Assembly: GCA_016764415.1 (NCBI GenBank)
Contig: JAESRY010000070.1
Coordinates: 521-10,642, forward strand
Source of the DNA: Cycloclasticus sp.
Lineage (GTDB): Bacteria; Pseudomonadota; Gammaproteobacteria; Methylococcales; Cycloclasticaceae
Direction: 5' to 3'
DNA length: 10,122 nucleotides
In this document: positions 48 to 6,077 of the stretch, piece by piece
Numbering within the stretch: the first letter of the stretch is position 1
Layout of the letters: each line of letters begins with the position of its first letter
The notes under the pieces: generated by a model
Seen by the model: only the letters and a program-made list of their open reading frames with translations
Databases searched by the model: none
What the model was told of the DNA's origin: nothing
Made by a program: the position numbers and the translations under genes

Positions 48-1670
48 TTACAGCATGCTAATCTTGCGCAGAACCTTAAACCAAATTATTTCAAGATCCA
101 TAACAAAAAAATGAACGCCCAACATTACGATAATAATCAGCCCTGCTAGCCAATATAATTTCACATACACACTTTGAGCTTTATATATCTTTACATACCA
201 ACTTTGCGTCGCATTAACACCATCACTCTTTACTGTAATAAGCGGCACGACGACTAACGGAGGAGCCCCAACGATACGAGTCAATTCATTGTATCCGCGA
301 ACACCCCCTACCAATATTTCAAACAACAAGGCTAAGCCAACACCGATTCCTATCGATGCGACTACTCCCATTAAAAATATTTTTGGACGATTAGGTTTTT
401 CTGGTTTATTAGGCACCAATGGTGGCTCGATAAGGGTAAAGCTTTCACCTTTATTCTCAGACTCTAAATTTTGAGCCAGTTCTGCTTGCAATTCCTTTGC
501 CCTCAACTCTTGATATTTAGCTAGATTATTCTGGTAATCACGGACTAAATCTTCATACGCACGCTTAACTTGATGCGTTTCAGCCACTCTTTTTTCAAAC
601 TCATTTAATTTTCCATTGATTATCTTTCTGCGCACCTGAATTCTTTTAATCTCTCTTTCAGAAGAATCTATTTTCGAATTTATCTTCAAAAGTAATGGGC
701 TTTTATATCTAGTACCTACTACTGTTTTTTTAGCCGCATTAGTACCCAATTGTTTTTCAAGGCTTTTTATTTGTCGCTTTAAGCGCTTGATATCTGGGTG
801 ACTTTCAGAATATTTATCTTGTAACGCAGCATACTGAGCCTTAGCTTGAGATAGCTGTTGAGCCGGACTAGCCGCTTGTTGAGAGCCGACTGATGGTAAT
901 AACGCATCTAAATTCGCTAATTCCAAACTCATTGTCATTATTTGGTCTTTTAAAACCATTATATTGTTTTGGCCCGTCACTAGCTGTTCCTGAAGCTTTT
1001 CTACCATGGATAAGTTATATGGCAACAGTTCCGGCAAGCTGTCATTAAACTCTTCTTTAAAATCAGCGATTTTCTTTTCTAGAGACTGAATTTTTCGTTG
1101 GAACTTATCCCCTTCTTCTTTTAAGAATGCCCGGGTTTCATTTGCTCGTGCCGTTCTCGTTTTAACGTTTTCATTTAAAAATTGAGTGGTTAATTCGTTT
1201 GCTATTTTTTGGGCCATTACAGGATCTTCATCCATAAATGACACATTAAAAGCAATGTTTGCTCGTTTAGATCTACCGCTACGCGGGTCGGTTACGTTAG
1301 CTTGAACCATGTCAACCGACATGTTTTGACGAAACAAACCCACAATGACTGAAGGTGCTGATTTTTTAACTGTTTCTGGATATAAATGGTATTTTTTTAC
1401 AATCCCCATCACCCTTGATGTCGTCATTAGTTTTTGCTTAATAACGGCTATTCGTTGATCTGCATAACTGGTGACTGTTGAACGAACCAGATCAATCGGG
1501 ATTTCCTGTGCCTCAATTAGTATTAGCCCCGTCGATTTATATGTGGCGGGCAAAAGCAGTGCTACCGCTGCTGACACTAAGATTAAAAAAATCGCAGGAT
1601 AAATAACAATCTTTTTATGGCGTTTAAGTATCTCTAGGTATTCACTTATTCCTTTAACTTCTTCTTCCAT
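48..1670 (-). CDS. Polysaccharide chain-length determinant (Wzz/GumC-like)
   Basis: Inner-membrane co-polymerase of the polysaccharide co-polymerase family, which sets EPS chain length and contacts the outer-membrane exporter. A Wzz domain starts at the N-terminus (ISEYLEILKRHKK), followed by a membrane helix at about residues 21-41. The conserved stretch EIPIDLVRSTVTSYADQRI comes next. The periplasmic part, about residues 160-400, is charged and predicted coiled coil. A proline-rich motif (PNKPEKPNRPK) leads into a second membrane helix at about 430-452. A third hydrophobic segment near 505-525 precedes a tail (DLEIIWFKVLRKI) typical of GumC-like proteins. There is no Walker A or tyrosine-rich kinase tail. 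The frame can be read from TTG at 1685, but ATG at 1670 is preferred: it lies 15 bases after the barrel stop with an AGAG-like site just upstream. It is the last gene of the export trio. Confidence 0.88.
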   Translation of the reverse strand: MEEEVKGISEYLEILKRHKKIVIYPAIFLILVSAAVALLLPATYKSTGLILIEAQEIPIDLVRSTVTSYADQRIAVIKQKLMTTSRVMGIVKKYHLYPETVKKSAPSVIVGLFRQNMSVDMVQANVTDPRSGRSKRANIAFNVSFMDEDPVMAQKIANELTTQFLNENVKTRTARANETRAFLKEEGDKFQRKIQSLEKKIADFKEEFNDSLPELLPYNLSMVEKLQEQLVTGQNNIMVLKDQIMTMSLELANLDALLPSVGSQQAASPAQQLSQAKAQYAALQDKYSESHPDIKRLKRQIKSLEKQLGTNAAKKTVVGTRYKSPLLLKINSKIDSSEREIKRIQVRRKIINGKLNEFEKRVAETHQVKRAYEDLVRDYQNNLAKYQELRAKELQAELAQNLESENKGESFTLIEPPLVPNKPEKPNRPKIFLMGVVASIGIGVGLALLFEILVGGVRGYNELTRIVGAPPLVVVPLITVKSDGVNATQSWYVKIYKAQSVYVKLYWLAGLIIIVMLGVHFFVMDLEIIWFKVLRKISML

Positions 1671-1685
1671 TTTTACTCTACCCAA

Positions 1686-2855
1686 TTAGCGTGAAACGCT
1701 AAAACCATCCCAATTGTAATTAAACGTTAACATCACTGCATTGCTGCTTACTCTTGTATCATTCACAGATTCTTTTTGTTGGCGATACCTATACGTCAAC
1801 GCAATACTAGCATCAGGTGAGAGCTTTAAATTAATAGCCGGTGACACACTAATATTTTCTCGTTTATCGCTGGAATTAACTCTTGCGGAAGATGTTTGTT
1901 GAATACTTGCGCGAATACTTGTAGAAAGAACGTCTGACAAATCCCTTGACCAATTAATACTGAACTTATCTATTTCGTTTACACCACCATCAATCGATGG
2001 CGATATTGAACGTGAAACACCTATACTCGCAGTGTCTACATCTTTTTTATACGAAACATTAACATTTAAAGACGAACCGGTTGTACTCCCGTTACTTGTT
2101 ACATTGGCTGCATCCTTTTGCTCACTGTCTAACTGCCGAATACCTACGCTACCATTAATAGACCAAATTTCAGACATTTCATATTGTGATGTTAATGATA
2201 AATTATATGTATCATCATCTGATGAGCTAGCAAGCCCGGTGGATTTGTTATTACTAACCGTTAAAGCAACGCCACCATTAAGGCGCTCTGTGAATTTGTG
2301 CGTCCAACTTGTTGTTAATGAACGACTCTTGCTATCACTAAAATCTACCGTAGAAGATTCTTGCTTAACATAACTACCTCTTACTCCCAATACATCACGC
2401 TCTGTCAATTGGTAACTAAATGAAGGCGCAATTGTTTCTGACGTATTAATCGAATTCGTTTCAAAATCACCAGTATTATCCGCCGCCAAACTTCTACTTG
2501 TTCGTTCTTGGTAGCTAACCCCTAAGCCCCAACTGCTTCTTTGTGTCTGATATTGCGTATTAAAGCGCCAAAAAGGATTCTCTGTATTCAGCTCACTCGA
2601 CTCATCGTAACGATCCACGACATAACCTGTATTAAATGATACGTTCATATTTTCAAGGTTATATGCTGCACTTAATGTCGGGCTCATTCTCGAGTGGTAG
2701 TCTCCGATTTTGTTGGTATCGCGCATGAAAATATTATCATCGTATTCTAATGACGGATCAACACTACCCGACAACGACCATTGCGCCGCATGCACAGCCG
2801 GCATACTAAACACACTAATTATTGCTACTGAAATTATTTTATACATTGAAAGCAT
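1686..2855 (-). CDS. Outer-membrane beta-barrel protein of the EPS export set
   Basis: A 389-residue protein with a Sec signal peptide (cleavage probably after VHA near residue 23). The mature part consists of alternating polar/hydrophobic strands and Ser/Asn/Asp-rich turns, with repeated aromatic strand ends, as in a beta-barrel. Early residues (DPSLEYDDNIFMRD) resemble the start of the beta-barrel proteins found beside exosortase/EPS genes (TIGR03016-like or BBP2-like). Exact family membership was not tested. The last residue is Arg rather than the usual aromatic residue recognised by the Bam machinery. The start is two bases after the export-protein stop, which implies translational coupling. 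Its place between the export protein and the chain-length gene suggests it is the outer-membrane pore for the polymer. A second ATG three codons in is possible. Confidence 0.8.
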   Translation of the reverse strand: MLSMYKIISVAIISVFSMPAVHAAQWSLSGSVDPSLEYDDNIFMRDTNKIGDYHSRMSPTLSAAYNLENMNVSFNTGYVVDRYDESSELNTENPFWRFNTQYQTQRSSWGLGVSYQERTSRSLAADNTGDFETNSINTSETIAPSFSYQLTERDVLGVRGSYVKQESSTVDFSDSKSRSLTTSWTHKFTERLNGGVALTVSNNKSTGLASSSDDDTYNLSLTSQYEMSEIWSINGSVGIRQLDSEQKDAANVTSNGSTTGSSLNVNVSYKKDVDTASIGVSRSISPSIDGGVNEIDKFSINWSRDLSDVLSTSIRASIQQTSSARVNSSDKRENISVSPAINLKLSPDASIALTYRYRQQKESVNDTRVSSNAVMLTFNYNWDGFSVSR

Positions 2856-2857
2856 AC

Positions 2858-3397
2858 CTACGGAACAACGATGACATCACCGCTTTTAAGTTTAATATTG
2901 CTGGATACATCGCCGCCTTTTATATCTGCATATCGTACATGTATGACCTTGTCGCCGCGAATGACTGAAATATTATTTTCTTCTGCATAAGGCGATAAGC
3001 CACCTGCCATACTTAGCGCCTGCATAACATTAAATCGTCTATTCATAACAAAGCTGCCTGGGTTAGAAATTTTGCCTAACACATGCACCGTATTACCACT
3101 TACGCTACTTACAACAATGGTTACTAACGGATCTGAGAGAAATTCAGTCAATTTCTTCTTAAGCGCCAATTGCAGCTCTGTTACGCTTTTTCCTTCAGCA
3201 AGAATTTCACCCGCGAGAGGAAAAGAAATCATTCCATCGGGTAAAACAATGACTGTTTTTACAAGCGTGGTCTCTTTCCAAACAGAAACATCAAGAATAT
3301 CACCTGGGTTAAGCAGGTAACGATCTGCAGCAATAGCCGCATTACCCACTAAAATCAATGTCATCCAAAAACTAAATCGCAAAAAAATACATTTCAT
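2858..3397 (-). CDS. Short periplasmic polysaccharide export protein (Wza-like OPX)
   Basis: A 179-residue polysaccharide export protein. After a signal peptide (about 1-23, site AIA|AD) comes the Poly_export domain (YLLNPGDILDVSVWKE ... LPDGMISFPLAGEI ... DPLVTIVV). One SLBB-type domain follows (VHVLGKISNPGSFVMNRR, then NVMQALSMAGGLSPYA), ending in GDVIVVP. It is about half the length of E. coli Wza, which has about 380 residues. It lacks Wza's further repeats and the C-terminal amphipathic helix that forms the outer-membrane pore. No Cys lies at the cleavage site, so it is not a lipoprotein. The adjacent barrel probably provides the membrane pore. ATG 3397 has an AGAGGG site (3409-3404) at good distance. 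It begins the export operon after the terminator of the upstream gene. Confidence 0.9.
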   Translation of the reverse strand: MKCIFLRFSFWMTLILVGNAAIAADRYLLNPGDILDVSVWKETTLVKTVIVLPDGMISFPLAGEILAEGKSVTELQLALKKKLTEFLSDPLVTIVVSSVSGNTVHVLGKISNPGSFVMNRRFNVMQALSMAGGLSPYAEENNISVIRGDKVIHVRYADIKGGDVSSNIKLKSGDVIVVP

Positions 3398-3442: not shown

Positions 3443-3470
3443 AAAAAAAAGGGAGCATAAGCTCCCTTTT
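3443..3470 (-). terminator. Rho-independent terminator after the PEP-CTERM gene
   Basis: On the minus strand a perfect GGGAGC/GCTCCC stem with loop TTAT is followed by eight T residues. AAAA before the stem can pair with the first T residues to extend it to ten pairs. It lies about 75 bases after the stop at 3544. It closes the PEP-CTERM transcript and separates it from the export genes. The four T residues on the plus side make weak activity in the other direction possible. Confidence 0.92.
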
Positions 3471-3543: not shown

Positions 3544-4047
3544 CTACGCTGCTACCGCTGCTTTACGACGTAAGCCGAAAAAGCCAAGTAGAGCTGGTGC
3601 AAATAAGAACAATGCAGCAGGTATTGGTGTAGCAATACGCAAATCATAGTTACTAGCCGCAACTGCATTAGTGATATCGATATAAACATTATATACAGTA
3701 TTAGCTGCTAACACCCAAAAATATGAAGCCGAACCATTAGGCCCTACTGCATTTACAGCTAGATTTATAAGACTATTACCATCAAATAATGAAACAGTTG
3801 ACCCTGGTGTTAAAGGGTTAAATGTAACTGATAAGTAACCGCCAGATAACGCATCTGTTGTAACTGTATACACATCGTTGATAGTTTCACCACTGTTTTG
3901 ACTAGATGACCAATCAGCAGTTACAAGGTTACCCGAACCAAATTTTACGGCTCCAGCATTACCAACAGCACCAGTCAAAGTCAAAGTCGCAGCATTAACA
4001 CTTACAGCAAACAACATCCCCACTATTAAAAACATTACTTTTTTCAT
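3544..4047 (-). CDS. Small secreted protein with PEP-CTERM/VPLPA-type sorting signal
   Basis: A 167-residue probable exosortase substrate. It has an N-terminal Sec signal peptide (KK start, hydrophobic core, site VNA|AT near residue 19) and a C-terminal tripartite tail from about 141. The tail has the motif PIPAAL, a hydrophobic helix (FLFAPALLGFFGL), then RRK and a short Ala-rich end. This matches the PEP-CTERM class, VPLPA-like variant, in which exosortase cleaves at the motif and the protein is released or attached outside the cell. The roughly 120-residue middle is rich in Ser, Asn, Thr, Gly and Val, has no Cys and looks like a small beta-sandwich. The DALSGGYLSVTF ... YNVYIDI ... YDLRI pattern recalls PPC-like domains, but this is only resemblance. 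AAAGGA at 4060-4055 is the ribosome binding site. The gene stands alone between its own riboswitch leader and terminator. No exosortase gene is in the window. Confidence 0.85.
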   Translation of the reverse strand: MKKVMFLIVGMLFAVSVNAATLTLTGAVGNAGAVKFGSGNLVTADWSSSQNSGETINDVYTVTTDALSGGYLSVTFNPLTPGSTVSLFDGNSLINLAVNAVGPNGSASYFWVLAANTVYNVYIDITNAVAASNYDLRIATPIPAALFLFAPALLGFFGLRRKAAVAA

Positions 4048-4079
4048 AATTTTTTCCTTTAAATTAAATTTAATTTTCT

Positions 4080-4172
4080 AAGTAATGTAACTCAGCCATC
4101 TTTAAAGAATTGCGCGCTTTTTAAAGACCTGAAGCTTTCCGTCCTTGGTTCACACCAAGTTTGGCTTAATTT
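4080..4172 (-). promoter_or_regulatory. Probable cyclic-di-GMP class I (GEMM) riboswitch
   Basis: The minus strand shows the GEMM-I order of conserved blocks. AAGC (4167-4164) pairs with GCUU (4135-4132). Inside are GCCAAAC (4165-4159), a six-pair P2 hairpin CUUGGU-GUGA-ACCAAG with a GNRA loop (4159-4144), and GGACGGAAAGC (4144-4134). CAGGUCUUUAAA follows, opening P3, whose arms 4127-4120 and 4106-4099 are perfectly complementary over eight pairs. The closing block GAUGGCUGAGUUAC (4100-4087) matches the family's 3' end (Vc2: AGGUAGCGGGGUUACC). The usual G-C pair below P2 appears swapped to C-G, which keeps pairing. The aptamer ends about 35 bases before the start codon with no clear terminator between, so control may act on translation. 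Whether ligand turns the gene on or off cannot be read from the sequence. Confidence 0.8.
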
Positions 4173-4200
4173 TAATACCTTAACCATTTAAAGTATTAAA
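4171..4200. repeat. Inverted repeat upstream of the riboswitch
   Basis: TTTAATAC (4171-4178) and GTATTAAA (4193-4200) form a perfect eight-base inverted repeat with a 14-base loop, immediately 5' of the aptamer in the leader. It could be an extra leader hairpin or an operator. AT-rich composition makes chance occurrence possible. Confidence 0.4.
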
Positions 4201-4204
4201 AACC

Positions 4205-4236
4205 AACTAACCAAACAATCAATTAGTTAGTTAGTT
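4205..4236. repeat. TTAG tandem repeat with facing inverted copy
   Basis: TTAG is repeated in tandem at 4223-4234, and AACTAAC (4205-4211) is the inverse of GTTAGTT (4226-4232). On the minus strand TTGATT within this area could serve as a -35 box 18 bases before a poor -10 (TAATAC), so the riboswitch promoter may lie here. The evidence is weak. Confidence 0.3.
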
Positions 4237-4587
4237 AAGCACCAATGTATATAAATTTTAAAACCTCGTCTATTGTACTTTGGTACTAGTTTCTAATGAA
4301 AAAGCATCTTATTTAATAAAGATTGCTCAAACATTAGTCGCAGATTTGATTGTATAGACATAGCTGTCGCAAATAAAGGGTTATCTTGAAGCTGTCATAT
4401 AACTACAAACGCTGCATGCAAAACGCCAATGCCCTGTATTAAGACATTTACGTAGAAAAAAAATTTCTGTTTCTAGACAAGGCGAAATGCGCGGAAAGAT
4501 GGCTTTTACTAGAGAAAATGACCGGTTGAGCATTTTTTAACGCCACATAGGGACAAAATAACTTTCGTGCGAGGGTCTCACCTTTAG
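4237..4587. other. Non-coding spacer upstream of the riboswitch unit
   Basis: No credible gene is visible. A 50-codon minus frame (4533-4381) has no ribosome binding site and no recognisable domain. The part 4440-4585 is richer in G and C and in short inverted repeats than 4240-4440. Examples are AGAAA/TTTCT around an A-tract at 4455, AAAATG/CATTTT at 4515-4536 flanking ACCGGT, and a mismatched hairpin at 4567-4581. It may be a dispersed intergenic repeat. The promoter for the PEP-CTERM unit must lie in or just after this stretch, but no convincing box was found. No strong terminator is seen after the transferase stop. Confidence 0.4.
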
Positions 4588-5997
4588 CTAATAAGCATTT
4601 TTATTTACGAAACCTTTGAAAATAGTAAGGAATATAATTTTAAGATCCAAACCGATTGACCATGTTTGAATGTATTTAAGGTCATAGTGCACACGTTCTT
4701 CCATTTTATCTAACGTATCTGTTTCGCCCCTAAACCCTTTAATTTGCGCTAAGCCCGTAATGCCTGGCTTTACTTTGTGCCGTAACATATAACCTTGTAT
4801 CTTATTTCGGTATTCCTCATTGTGCGCCACCGCATGTGGCCGTGGCCCAACAATGGACATACTGCCACCTAGCGCATTAAAGAATTGAGGCAATTCATCC
4901 AACGAGGTTTTCCGTAAAAGCCTGCCTAAAGAAGTTACCCGCTCGTCATTTTTTGAGGCTTGATTTATAATCAAGCCATTATCTTCTACTCTCATGGAAC
5001 GGAATTTCCATACTTTTATCCTTTTCCCATCTGCTCCGTAACGATCTTGTTTGAACAATACAGGGCCTGGCGACGTTAATTTGATCAGCAATGTAACAAC
5101 TAACATAATTGGTGCAATCAATATAAGGATAACAATACTTAACACGATGTCTTCTAGACGCTTCAGGATGGAATCCAAACCCGCGAAAGGCGTTTCATAA
5201 ATACTAATCGCTGTGATGCCTTGGTAGTCCACCCAACGAGAATTAATCAAGTTGAATATAAACAAATCAGGCACGAGATACACCGATGCTGTAGTGTCAG
5301 CAAGCGCTTCTGTTAATTTTTTAATCCTATGTTCAGCAGACATCGCTAATGTAATAAATACCGTATCTATTTTGCCGCTTTTACAGTCTTCTATTAATTG
5401 TTTAGTATGCAAAACATCACCTGCGGACTCTTTACTTAAGCGACGCCCCTCCGACTGATCGCCCCTGTCATCATAATAACCGGCGAATCTATACCCACTC
5501 CATTCCATTCTGTCAAAAGCAATTTTAAGACGGGCAGCTAGGGGTGTTACCCCCACGATAGCGACTGCACGTGTGTTGTAACCTTTTGCTCGCAGAAAAC
5601 CCAGTATTGCTCGCACAACGGCATGCCACGAAACAAGCTCTATGGGTGTTAGGACAATCCAATAAAGGATGGGTTCGTCACTATATATATGAGTCTGAAA
5701 AAATAGCAGCCCCCCCATAATTAAGATAAAAATACCGGATAACCATGAAAATAAAACAGCCACTATCTCCTCTCGCAGCTTTCCGCCCCGCCAAGAACGG
5801 TAGGTATCTTGCGATTCAGCAAAAAAATTAAACGCGACAATAGACAGTAATGCAACAGGCAAATATAACGGCTTCCATTCCGCTTCAAGCAAATCAACCG
5901 ATGCAATAAACGTTAATAAAATAATGCTGCTATCTACCAATCTAGATATCGCATTTATTTTTGAGTCGTATTGTCTAATCTTTCCTTGGCGCTGCAT
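4588..5997 (-). CDS. Undecaprenyl-phosphate hexose-1-phosphate transferase (WcaJ-like)
   Basis: Polyprenol-phosphate sugar-phosphotransferase that starts EPS repeat-unit assembly by moving a hexose-1-phosphate, probably glucose, from UDP-sugar to undecaprenyl phosphate in the inner membrane. The N-terminal half has four hydrophobic segments (about residues 20-35, 45-62, 83-107 and 115-135). A Rossmann-like CoA_binding_3 domain follows, with AVAIVGVTPLAARL, where the usual third glycine is Ala. A further membrane segment (about 287-308) leads into the Bac_transf catalytic domain: SPGPVLFKQDRYG, KFRSM, SLDELPQFFNALGGSMSIVGPRPH and VKPGITGLAQIKGFRGET. At about 469 residues it is full length. TTG at 6003 is in frame, but ATG at 5997 is preferred because the AGGGA site is about ten bases before it and only about four before the TTG. 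Sugar specificity cannot be seen. Confidence 0.93.
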   Translation of the reverse strand: MQRQGKIRQYDSKINAISRLVDSSIILLTFIASVDLLEAEWKPLYLPVALLSIVAFNFFAESQDTYRSWRGGKLREEIVAVLFSWLSGIFILIMGGLLFFQTHIYSDEPILYWIVLTPIELVSWHAVVRAILGFLRAKGYNTRAVAIVGVTPLAARLKIAFDRMEWSGYRFAGYYDDRGDQSEGRRLSKESAGDVLHTKQLIEDCKSGKIDTVFITLAMSAEHRIKKLTEALADTTASVYLVPDLFIFNLINSRWVDYQGITAISIYETPFAGLDSILKRLEDIVLSIVILILIAPIMLVVTLLIKLTSPGPVLFKQDRYGADGKRIKVWKFRSMRVEDNGLIINQASKNDERVTSLGRLLRKTSLDELPQFFNALGGSMSIVGPRPHAVAHNEEYRNKIQGYMLRHKVKPGITGLAQIKGFRGETDTLDKMEERVHYDLKYIQTWSIGLDLKIIFLTIFKGFVNKNAY

Positions 5998-6077
5998 CTG
6001 CAAATGTTCCCTGCTTATTGTTGTACGCGGTGTATATATTTCAACCGCAACGATTTACGTATTTTTAACAAGCTTAG

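Follow-up and report, generated by a model that had tools for sequence, protein, structure and literature searches.

The stretch of Cycloclasticus sp. DNA analyzed here (10,122 nt, hereafter the window) carries a riboswitch-like leader before a small gene for a probable exosortase substrate among EPS genes, which raises the question of what this RNA senses, which genes it governs and by what means. To our knowledge, the role and timing of exosortase-processed proteins are largely open. The initial annotation had proposed a c-di-GMP class I riboswitch at 4080–4172, together with a covariance-model check. In a cmscan of the whole window, RF01051 (c-di-GMP-I, GEMM-I) matched over the full model (1–87) at 60.1 bits with an E value of 4.7e-10, the gathering cut-off being 35 bits, and was the only RNA family above its gathering threshold. 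The proposal is thus borne out, and the annotated interval was the right element, shifted by 3 bases (Table 1). The variant model RF03167 (GGC) also matches the window, but at 55.7 bits it stays below its own cut-off of 59. Taken alone, the 93-nt aptamer has an unremarkable folding energy (z −0.97), so that the evidence for it comes from conservation and from the match to a model of sequence plus structure; by these, the element is a genuine c-di-GMP-I riboswitch of a known kind, with c-di-GMP as its presumed ligand. The window's own genome (G000, a 1.63-Mb assembly, 58% complete) holds one RF01051 match and 13 GGDEF matches.

As first described, the GEMM-I blocks follow one another in order: GCCAAAC, a GNRA-capped P2 (six pairs, loop GUGA), GACGGAAAGC, a P3 of eight perfect pairs (UCUUUAAA/UUUAAAGA) and the closing GAUGGCUGAGUUAC. 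Residues G20 (4165), A47 (4138) and C92 (4087), whose role in ligand contact is given in the available text of PMC3764141 and PMC4744006, are all present. Two departures from the model consensus had gone unmentioned, namely a C21–G46 pair (4164 and 4139; consensus G21–C46) and the GUGA loop (consensus GAAA).

Table 1. Features of the window discussed in the text, in order of position.
Feature	Position	Strand	Basis
Chain-length determinant	48..1685	-	TIGR03007-like, below cut-off
EPS-locus outer-membrane protein	1686..2855	-	TIGR03016-like, below cut-off
EPS export protein	2858..3397	-	PF02563, SLBB
Terminator-like site, 10-bp stem then T run	3447..3470	-	2 sites in region vs 1.0 mean in shuffles
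167-aa protein, signal-peptide-like start, probable VPLPA-type exosortase (XrtD) substrate	3544..4047	-	ORF; 216 relatives
C-terminal sorting signal TPIPAALFLFAPALLGFFGLRRK	3562..3630	-	By eye; pattern common to relatives
3' strand of proposed occluding helix, codons 3 to 6 (AAGUAAUGU)	4032..4040	-	Fold, covariation
Shine-Dalgarno-like AAAGGA	4055..4060	-	Sequence
5' strand of proposed occluding helix, includes C92	4080..4088	-	Pairs with 4040–4032; covariation
c-di-GMP-I (GEMM-I) aptamer	4083..4175	-	RF01051, 60.1 bits, E 4.7e-10
Leader hairpin 2 (predicted), ending 4 nt before G20	4170..4201	-	Folds
Leader hairpin 1 (predicted)	4202..4235	-	Minimum-free-energy folds
-10-like hexamer TACATT at conserved distance from box	4244..4249	-	Spacing across box sites
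Promoter box TAGTACCAAAGTACAATAG / TAGTACCnnnGTACAATAG, putative activator site	4270..4288	-	0 mismatches
WcaJ-type undecaprenyl-phosphate glucose phosphotransferase	4588..6003	-	TIGR03023, 535.6 bits, cut-off 410.75

The gene order on the minus strand is rmlA, rmlC, rmlD, rmlB, wcaJ, the riboswitch gene, and the genes for the export, outer-membrane and chain-length proteins. The riboswitch gene was therefore rightly placed inside an EPS locus, with the WcaJ transferase and rmlBDCA on its upstream side and the export machinery downstream; the three downstream proteins resemble PEP-CTERM-system models, below the cut-offs of these. The link to c-di-GMP, once drawn within the EPS locus itself, would hold for the leader of one gene of that locus and not for the locus as a whole: between the riboswitch gene and the export gene stands the terminator-like site at 3470–3447, and control by the riboswitch is therefore probably limited to a single gene. 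Bounded by its own box and this site, with aptamer and coding region between them, the riboswitch gene looks like a unit of its own.

The product had been called a PEP-CTERM protein. That it is a probable exosortase substrate stands, but its C-terminus (IPAALFLFAPALLGFFGLRRK / TPIPAALFLFAPALLGFFGLRRKAAVAA) is VPLPA-like, and the exosortase of the genome is XrtD (TIGR04152, 561.6 vs a cut-off of 400, on contig C64), the VPLPA-specific type. No Pfam family matched the 167-aa protein, and no PEP-CTERM model reached its cut-off, the best NCBIfam match being flocculation protein PepA (14.4 of 80 bits). TIGR02595/PF07589 (PEP-CTERM) gave no match to the window protein and weak ones to two of nine relatives (12.2 and 7.9 bits vs 16), and TIGR03370 (VPLPA-CTERM, cut-off 25.35) matched neither the protein nor its C-terminal piece, with 9.5–12.2 bits in six of the nine relatives. 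Since neither type of model reached its cut-off, we infer the substrate type, which is probably VPLPA rather than PEP-CTERM; anchoring would presumably be carried out by XrtD. The 216 relatives (E ≤ 0.001) include one named VPLPA-CTERM by its source (P0069) among the 120 listed, and the named records come from Cycloclasticus, Methylophaga and one unclassified gammaproteobacterium.

The association of aptamer and substrate gene recurs in the genus. RF01051 was found in five of 18 genomes (six copies), and five of these copies lie directly upstream of a member of the window gene's family (G000, G002, G010 and twice in G016). Full-length relatives of the gene occur in four of the 18 genomes, all four with the riboswitch, and G015 has a C-terminal match only. 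XrtD was detected in G002, G010 and G015 besides the window genome, XrtA in G009 and G017, and XrtB in G001; G016 has matches to PF09721. The sixth copy (L004:1501-1579, in G007) has A20, the cGAMP-type residue, and precedes an M11-like metalloprotease gene opposite a PAS-GGDEF gene. Outside the genus, five tandem aptamers, each before a paralogue, occupy a Methylophaga EPS locus (L011:4026-7554); for one of the five, GGC is the best model.

At the order level, RF01051 was found in 100 of 201 genomes. The loci examined comprised 30 that were returned and 39 of 40 hand-picked from the matches listed (L197, at a contig end, was dropped), i.e., 69 rows with 68 distinct aptamers (L114 equals L167), so that the following fractions are not population estimates. 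By C-terminal pattern, 21 of the 69 rows precede a substrate-like gene; all 21 have C21 and 20 have G46, the remaining one not being parsed. None of the 31 G21–C46 rows does so, but in 22 of them the downstream gene is cut by the locus end or none was found. A further 17 C21-type rows lack such a gene, 10 of them being cut. As the choice of downstream genes was automatic and the starts of four substrates are more than 130 nt away, this link between C21 and exosortase substrates is a lead and not a census.

An alignment of 21 aptamers (one further, L137, was omitted for Ns) defines what is particular to this RNA. G20, C21, C22, G45, G46 and A47 are invariant, and C92 is kept in 20. The exception (L128:1311-1397), upstream of an exosortase-substrate-like gene, has U at this position in the alignment and may be decayed or altered in its ligand. 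The P2 loop is GUGA in 18 aptamers, GCGA in two and GUAA in one, above a plain P3 helix; the GAAA loop with an 11-nt receptor, typical but not required, was found in none of the 21. A GUGA loop favours a CU:AG helical receptor, of the kind that P3 offers. A consensus fold of the 21 leaders (RNAalifold) gives P2 and P3 with compensatory change in 13 of 22 pairs, and a P1 formed by the two flanks was undetectable (own −3.1 vs swapped −3.5, p 0.85). The missing P1 does not exclude the aptamer from the Rfam family, because P1 of the RF01051 model carries no pairs. Judged from the alignment, this is a lineage-specific aptamer version with G20, C21–G46 and a GUGA loop, without detectable P1; a G at the third loop position is described as infrequent in the available text of PMC3764141.

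The flipped pair beside the pocket could mean that the aptamer senses another cyclic dinucleotide. The flip is present in all 21 aligned aptamers, the GGC model comes near in the window, and RF03167 outranks the other families for L008 and for one of the L011 aptamers. Yet G20 is kept, and an A20-to-G change turned a cGAMP riboswitch into a c-di-GMP one (PMC6456294, available text); positions 21 and 46 are also absent from the list of highly conserved nucleotides in the portion of PMC3764141 available. A different ligand is accordingly improbable, and a cGAMP-type aptamer in particular was rejected as unlikely in view of G20. More improbable still is a degenerate aptamer without function, to which the single copy in a partial genome and the undetectable P1 would be congenial: the match scores 60 bits, P2 and P3 are maintained by the compensatory changes across the 21 leaders, and five copies are retained in tandem in L011.

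How binding might reach the gene, on which the initial annotation had made no proposal, was sought in the rest of the leader, which is ~190 nt long. Two hairpins are predicted before G20 in the window, and in the set of 21 leaders the 50 nt preceding this residue fold better than shuffles, with a combined p of 3.5e-9 as against 0.007 for a control stretch. A terminator platform was rejected, as the segment that links the aptamer to the gene has no terminator-like site on the gene's strand, and so was a P1, as no flank pairing was found in the 21 leaders. The strand containing C92 is complementary to codons 3–6 of the gene itself, and in the window leader fold C92 pairs with G4033 (codon 5) with a probability of 0.67. 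Over 13 leaders, which are related to one another, 97.4% of the 117 cells of this 9-bp helix are paired, a value reached by none of 500 shuffles, and controls slid along the sequence are 35–53% paired. Exchanges between A–U and G–C occur at two pairs, nine cells are changed on both sides, and the covariation score exceeds that of all 500 shuffles. Two of the five measures stay within the shuffles: 281 of 500 shuffles equal or exceed the number of pairs changed on either strand alike, and 497 of 500 do so for further pair types.

The partner of the C92 strand differs among leaders. When the region from 12 nt after C92 through codon 6, covering the Shine-Dalgarno (SD) sequence, was compared with shuffles, 15 of 21 leaders paired with their own start region at p ≤ 0.05, a test that is partly post hoc since the region was widened after a codon-only version in which seven of the eight leaders outside the 13 had p > 0.1 or an N. 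With the widened region, these eight give a combined p of 2.7e-4, and over 20 of the 21 leaders (L128 omitted for an N) own partners are better than swapped ones (mean −8.7 vs −5.8 kcal/mol, permutation p 5e-5). The partner is the SD region in L013, L136 and L146 (p 0.005–0.02), whose genes start differently, the AUG in L129 and L131, weakly (p 0.14 and 0.08), a site beside the AUG in L128 (p 0.07) and the codons in L011a (p 0.052); L143 and L144, two of the 21, have no such pairing. Among 27 methanotroph leaders (of 31 tried) the outcome is mixed, with p 0.18 against shuffles (Fisher) and 7.5e-4 in the swap test. Three of the methanotroph leaders (L172, L200 and L206) have a complement to the SD region within the C92 strand, either ACCUUAU or ACCUCGU (p 0.08–0.16).

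The window's folding calculation gives a different picture. Forcing C92 or its strand open did not open the SD or the AUG, because other pairs replace the helix: the unpaired probability went from 0.65–0.89 to 0.41–0.78 for the SD, from 0.38 to 0.22–0.29 for the first AUG base, and from ~0.1 to only 0.2–0.4 in the middle of codons 3–6. Even while the helix is in place, SD and AUG are for the most part open. The helix is thus a candidate platform supported by covariation and not by the window's own folding energetics. These energetics, along with the methanotroph leaders that do not differ from shuffles, suit a working c-di-GMP-I riboswitch with another platform, acting through RNA stability, Rho or as an OFF switch, with the helix arising as a by-product of AU richness and of conservation in the coding sequence. 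Vc1 of Vibrio cholerae offers a parallel, having no apparent anti-SD or terminator and a mechanism called unclear in the available text of PMC4744006. We consider this rather unlikely, though a serious contender, as a by-product does not readily account for the compensatory changes at two pairs and the swap test, nor for the same strand pairing with the SD region in L013, L136 and L146 despite their different gene starts.

Upstream of the leader lies a box that may supply a second input. It is the sole match in the window at ≤3 mismatches, a threshold at which one or more matches turn up in 19 of 200 shuffles. A TATAAT-like hexamer stands exactly 20 nt after the box at 28 of 55 distinct sites (next best offset, eight of 55), which in the window is TACATT, and transcription would start near 4238; a plain −35/−10 consensus scan found no promoter at the TACATT site. 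At ≤2 mismatches, the box occurs in 14 of the 18 genus genomes (34 sites vs 11 for a reversed-pattern control) and in all five further genomes, reached via L010-L013 and L015 (24 sites vs four). Among the genes that follow it in the genus are those with the riboswitch, another VPLPA-like gene (L060, L062 and L025) and adhesins with a LapA-type start, preceded by a small operon; one adhesin (L038) scores 81.6 bits with the retention-module model (cut-off 50), the remaining ones being assigned by likeness. Some sites with two mismatches (L046, L051 and L063) precede no such gene and look like chance.

In the five further genomes, 17 of the 24 sites are followed by genes whose C-terminus, by eye, resembles that of exosortase substrates, and an aptamer lies between box and start codon at 13 of these 17 vs none of the seven others. 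The latter comprise three retention-module proteins (one checked with the model), two proteins that resemble each other, the one checked being dCache-PAS-GGDEF-EAL, one ShlB-type transporter and one site at which no ORF was found. Within L011, only one of the five aptamers has the box at ≤2 mismatches. The box before this dCache-PAS-GGDEF-EAL protein (L215:148-3036, where the domains were checked) and before the similar L149 protein in a second Methylophaga genome has two mismatches; c-di-GMP turnover may therefore share the regulon.

A LuxR-type regulator of 209 aa is a putative reader of the box. Its gene lies ~4.5–5.4 kb from the box of the adhesin operon in nine genomes and, in G000, between tolC-like and hlyD-like genes. 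The ortholog group, from a clustering of 29 of 37 matches (one of them shortened to 5 residues), is present in 11 of 18 genomes, all 11 having the box at ≤1 mismatch; of the seven without it, G014 alone has the box. Relatives in the five further genomes reach 36–40% identity at best. Among PDB matches, NarL (E 4.1e-11) is better than VpsT (E 2.8e-9), and the NarL, EpsA and CsgD models match the regulator below their cut-offs. The c-di-GMP motif of VpsT is W[FLM][TS]R; since WIQR replaces it, a VpsT-like motif was rejected and no c-di-GMP binding is claimed for the regulator. The adhesin operon of G000 also has a box-driven, receiver-like protein of 134 aa without HTH (L217:6552-6956, contig C14), which by eye resembles the N-terminal part of the regulator and could be an antagonist.

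Control by sigma-54 and PrsR was rejected for the window: a −10-like hexamer comes after the box, and no PrsR rose above the cut-off in the partial G000 (best 370.5 vs 502.6), an absence that is weak because the genome is 58% complete. In the genus scan, PrsR exceeded the cut-off in G009 and G017 only; both have XrtA, and neither a box at ≤1 mismatch, a riboswitch nor a member of the LuxR-type group was detected there. Within the genus, XrtA thus goes with PrsR, and XrtD with the box and the LuxR-type regulator (G000, G002, G010 and G015).

The reading that we favour, by a little, is a translational ON switch: a GEMM-I aptamer in the ~190-nt leader, behind an activator-type promoter of its own, whose ligand frees the start of the gene from the C92-strand helix. 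It builds on computed features, i.e., the aptamer, the covarying helix, the box with its −10 spacing and its co-occurrence with the LuxR-type regulator; the direction of switching, the ribosome block and the identity of the activator are what we infer. Without c-di-GMP, the C92 strand (4088-4080) would pair with codons 3–6 (4040-4032) and make it harder for ribosomes to load at the SD and AUG lying in between. With c-di-GMP bound, its beta guanine would take C92 and thereby bar the helix, and the small XrtD-type surface protein would be translated. Binding and helix would exclude each other because C92 must pair with the ligand. As the box is shared with LapA-type adhesins and with further exosortase substrates, the gene would need activator and c-di-GMP together.

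Extended to relatives, the proposal is more tentative, and we hold it at somewhat less than an even chance: a P1-less GEMM-I lineage (G20, C21–G46, GUGA) would gate the translation of exosortase substrates in marine methylotrophic and hydrocarbon-degrading Gammaproteobacteria, with C92 in an occluding helix that can take SD, AUG or codons 3–6 as its partner. The box, which many of the substrate promoters share with LapA-type adhesins and a GGDEF-EAL gene and which the LuxR-type protein possibly reads, would add transcription to c-di-GMP in an AND gate on surface anchoring. If true, c-di-GMP would set the synthesis of anchored proteins one by one, with one activator for a whole surface programme; the recurring riboswitch version and the box shared with giant adhesins make this a concrete, testable circuit. 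A ligand and a start region that compete for C92 would also make a very simple form of class I translation control without P1 or terminator, which is notable beside Vc1, whose mechanism was called unclear (PMC4744006, available text).

Several known systems bear on this proposal, each compared as far as the available text of the cited paper goes. The sigma-54 sites that Haft 2006 described before PEP-CTERM genes (motif 1/motif 2, with PrsK/PrsR; PMC1569441) are likewise conserved cis sites before single-gene exosortase-substrate units with long leaders, but the box of the window sits 20 nt before a −10-like hexamer. The GEMM-Ib cGAMP riboswitches of Geobacter have the same fold and surface genes downstream, with A20 where the window has G20 (PMC6456294). 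Vc1 (gbpA) and Vc2 of Vibrio cholerae share the G20, A47 and C92 positions and the P2/P3 layout; unlike them, the window has C21–G46, a GUGA loop with plain P3, an undetectable P1 and a C92 strand that pairs with the start region (PMC4744006). In Vc1, a GEMM-I riboswitch, lower c-di-GMP gave lower reporter levels, in favour of the explanation preferred here; against it, the reporter did not respond to mutation of the residue that corresponds to C92 (PMC4744006).

The closest parallel is M. nitratireducenticrescens GP59, with seven c-di-GMP riboswitches, four of which (Ribo4-7, within 18 kb) flank PEP/VPLPA-CTERM genes near EPS genes (PMC12530212, PeerJ 2025). Relative transcript levels were higher in reactor biofilm for three of the four and, for Ribo5, in planktonic anoxic cultures (PMC12530212). 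As in the window, a c-di-GMP riboswitch there stands beside a PEP/VPLPA-CTERM gene in an EPS region; the genus is another one, and the available text of that account holds no aptamer analysis, platform or promoter box (PMC12530212). The bare association of riboswitch and exosortase substrate is therefore already in print for GP59. A word-based literature search, in which subscription papers were mostly outside, brought up no description that we recognised of the platform, the flipped pair or the box. Collectively, what goes beyond the earlier reading is the covarying helix of the C92 strand, the C21–G46 pair with G20 kept, and the recurring box.
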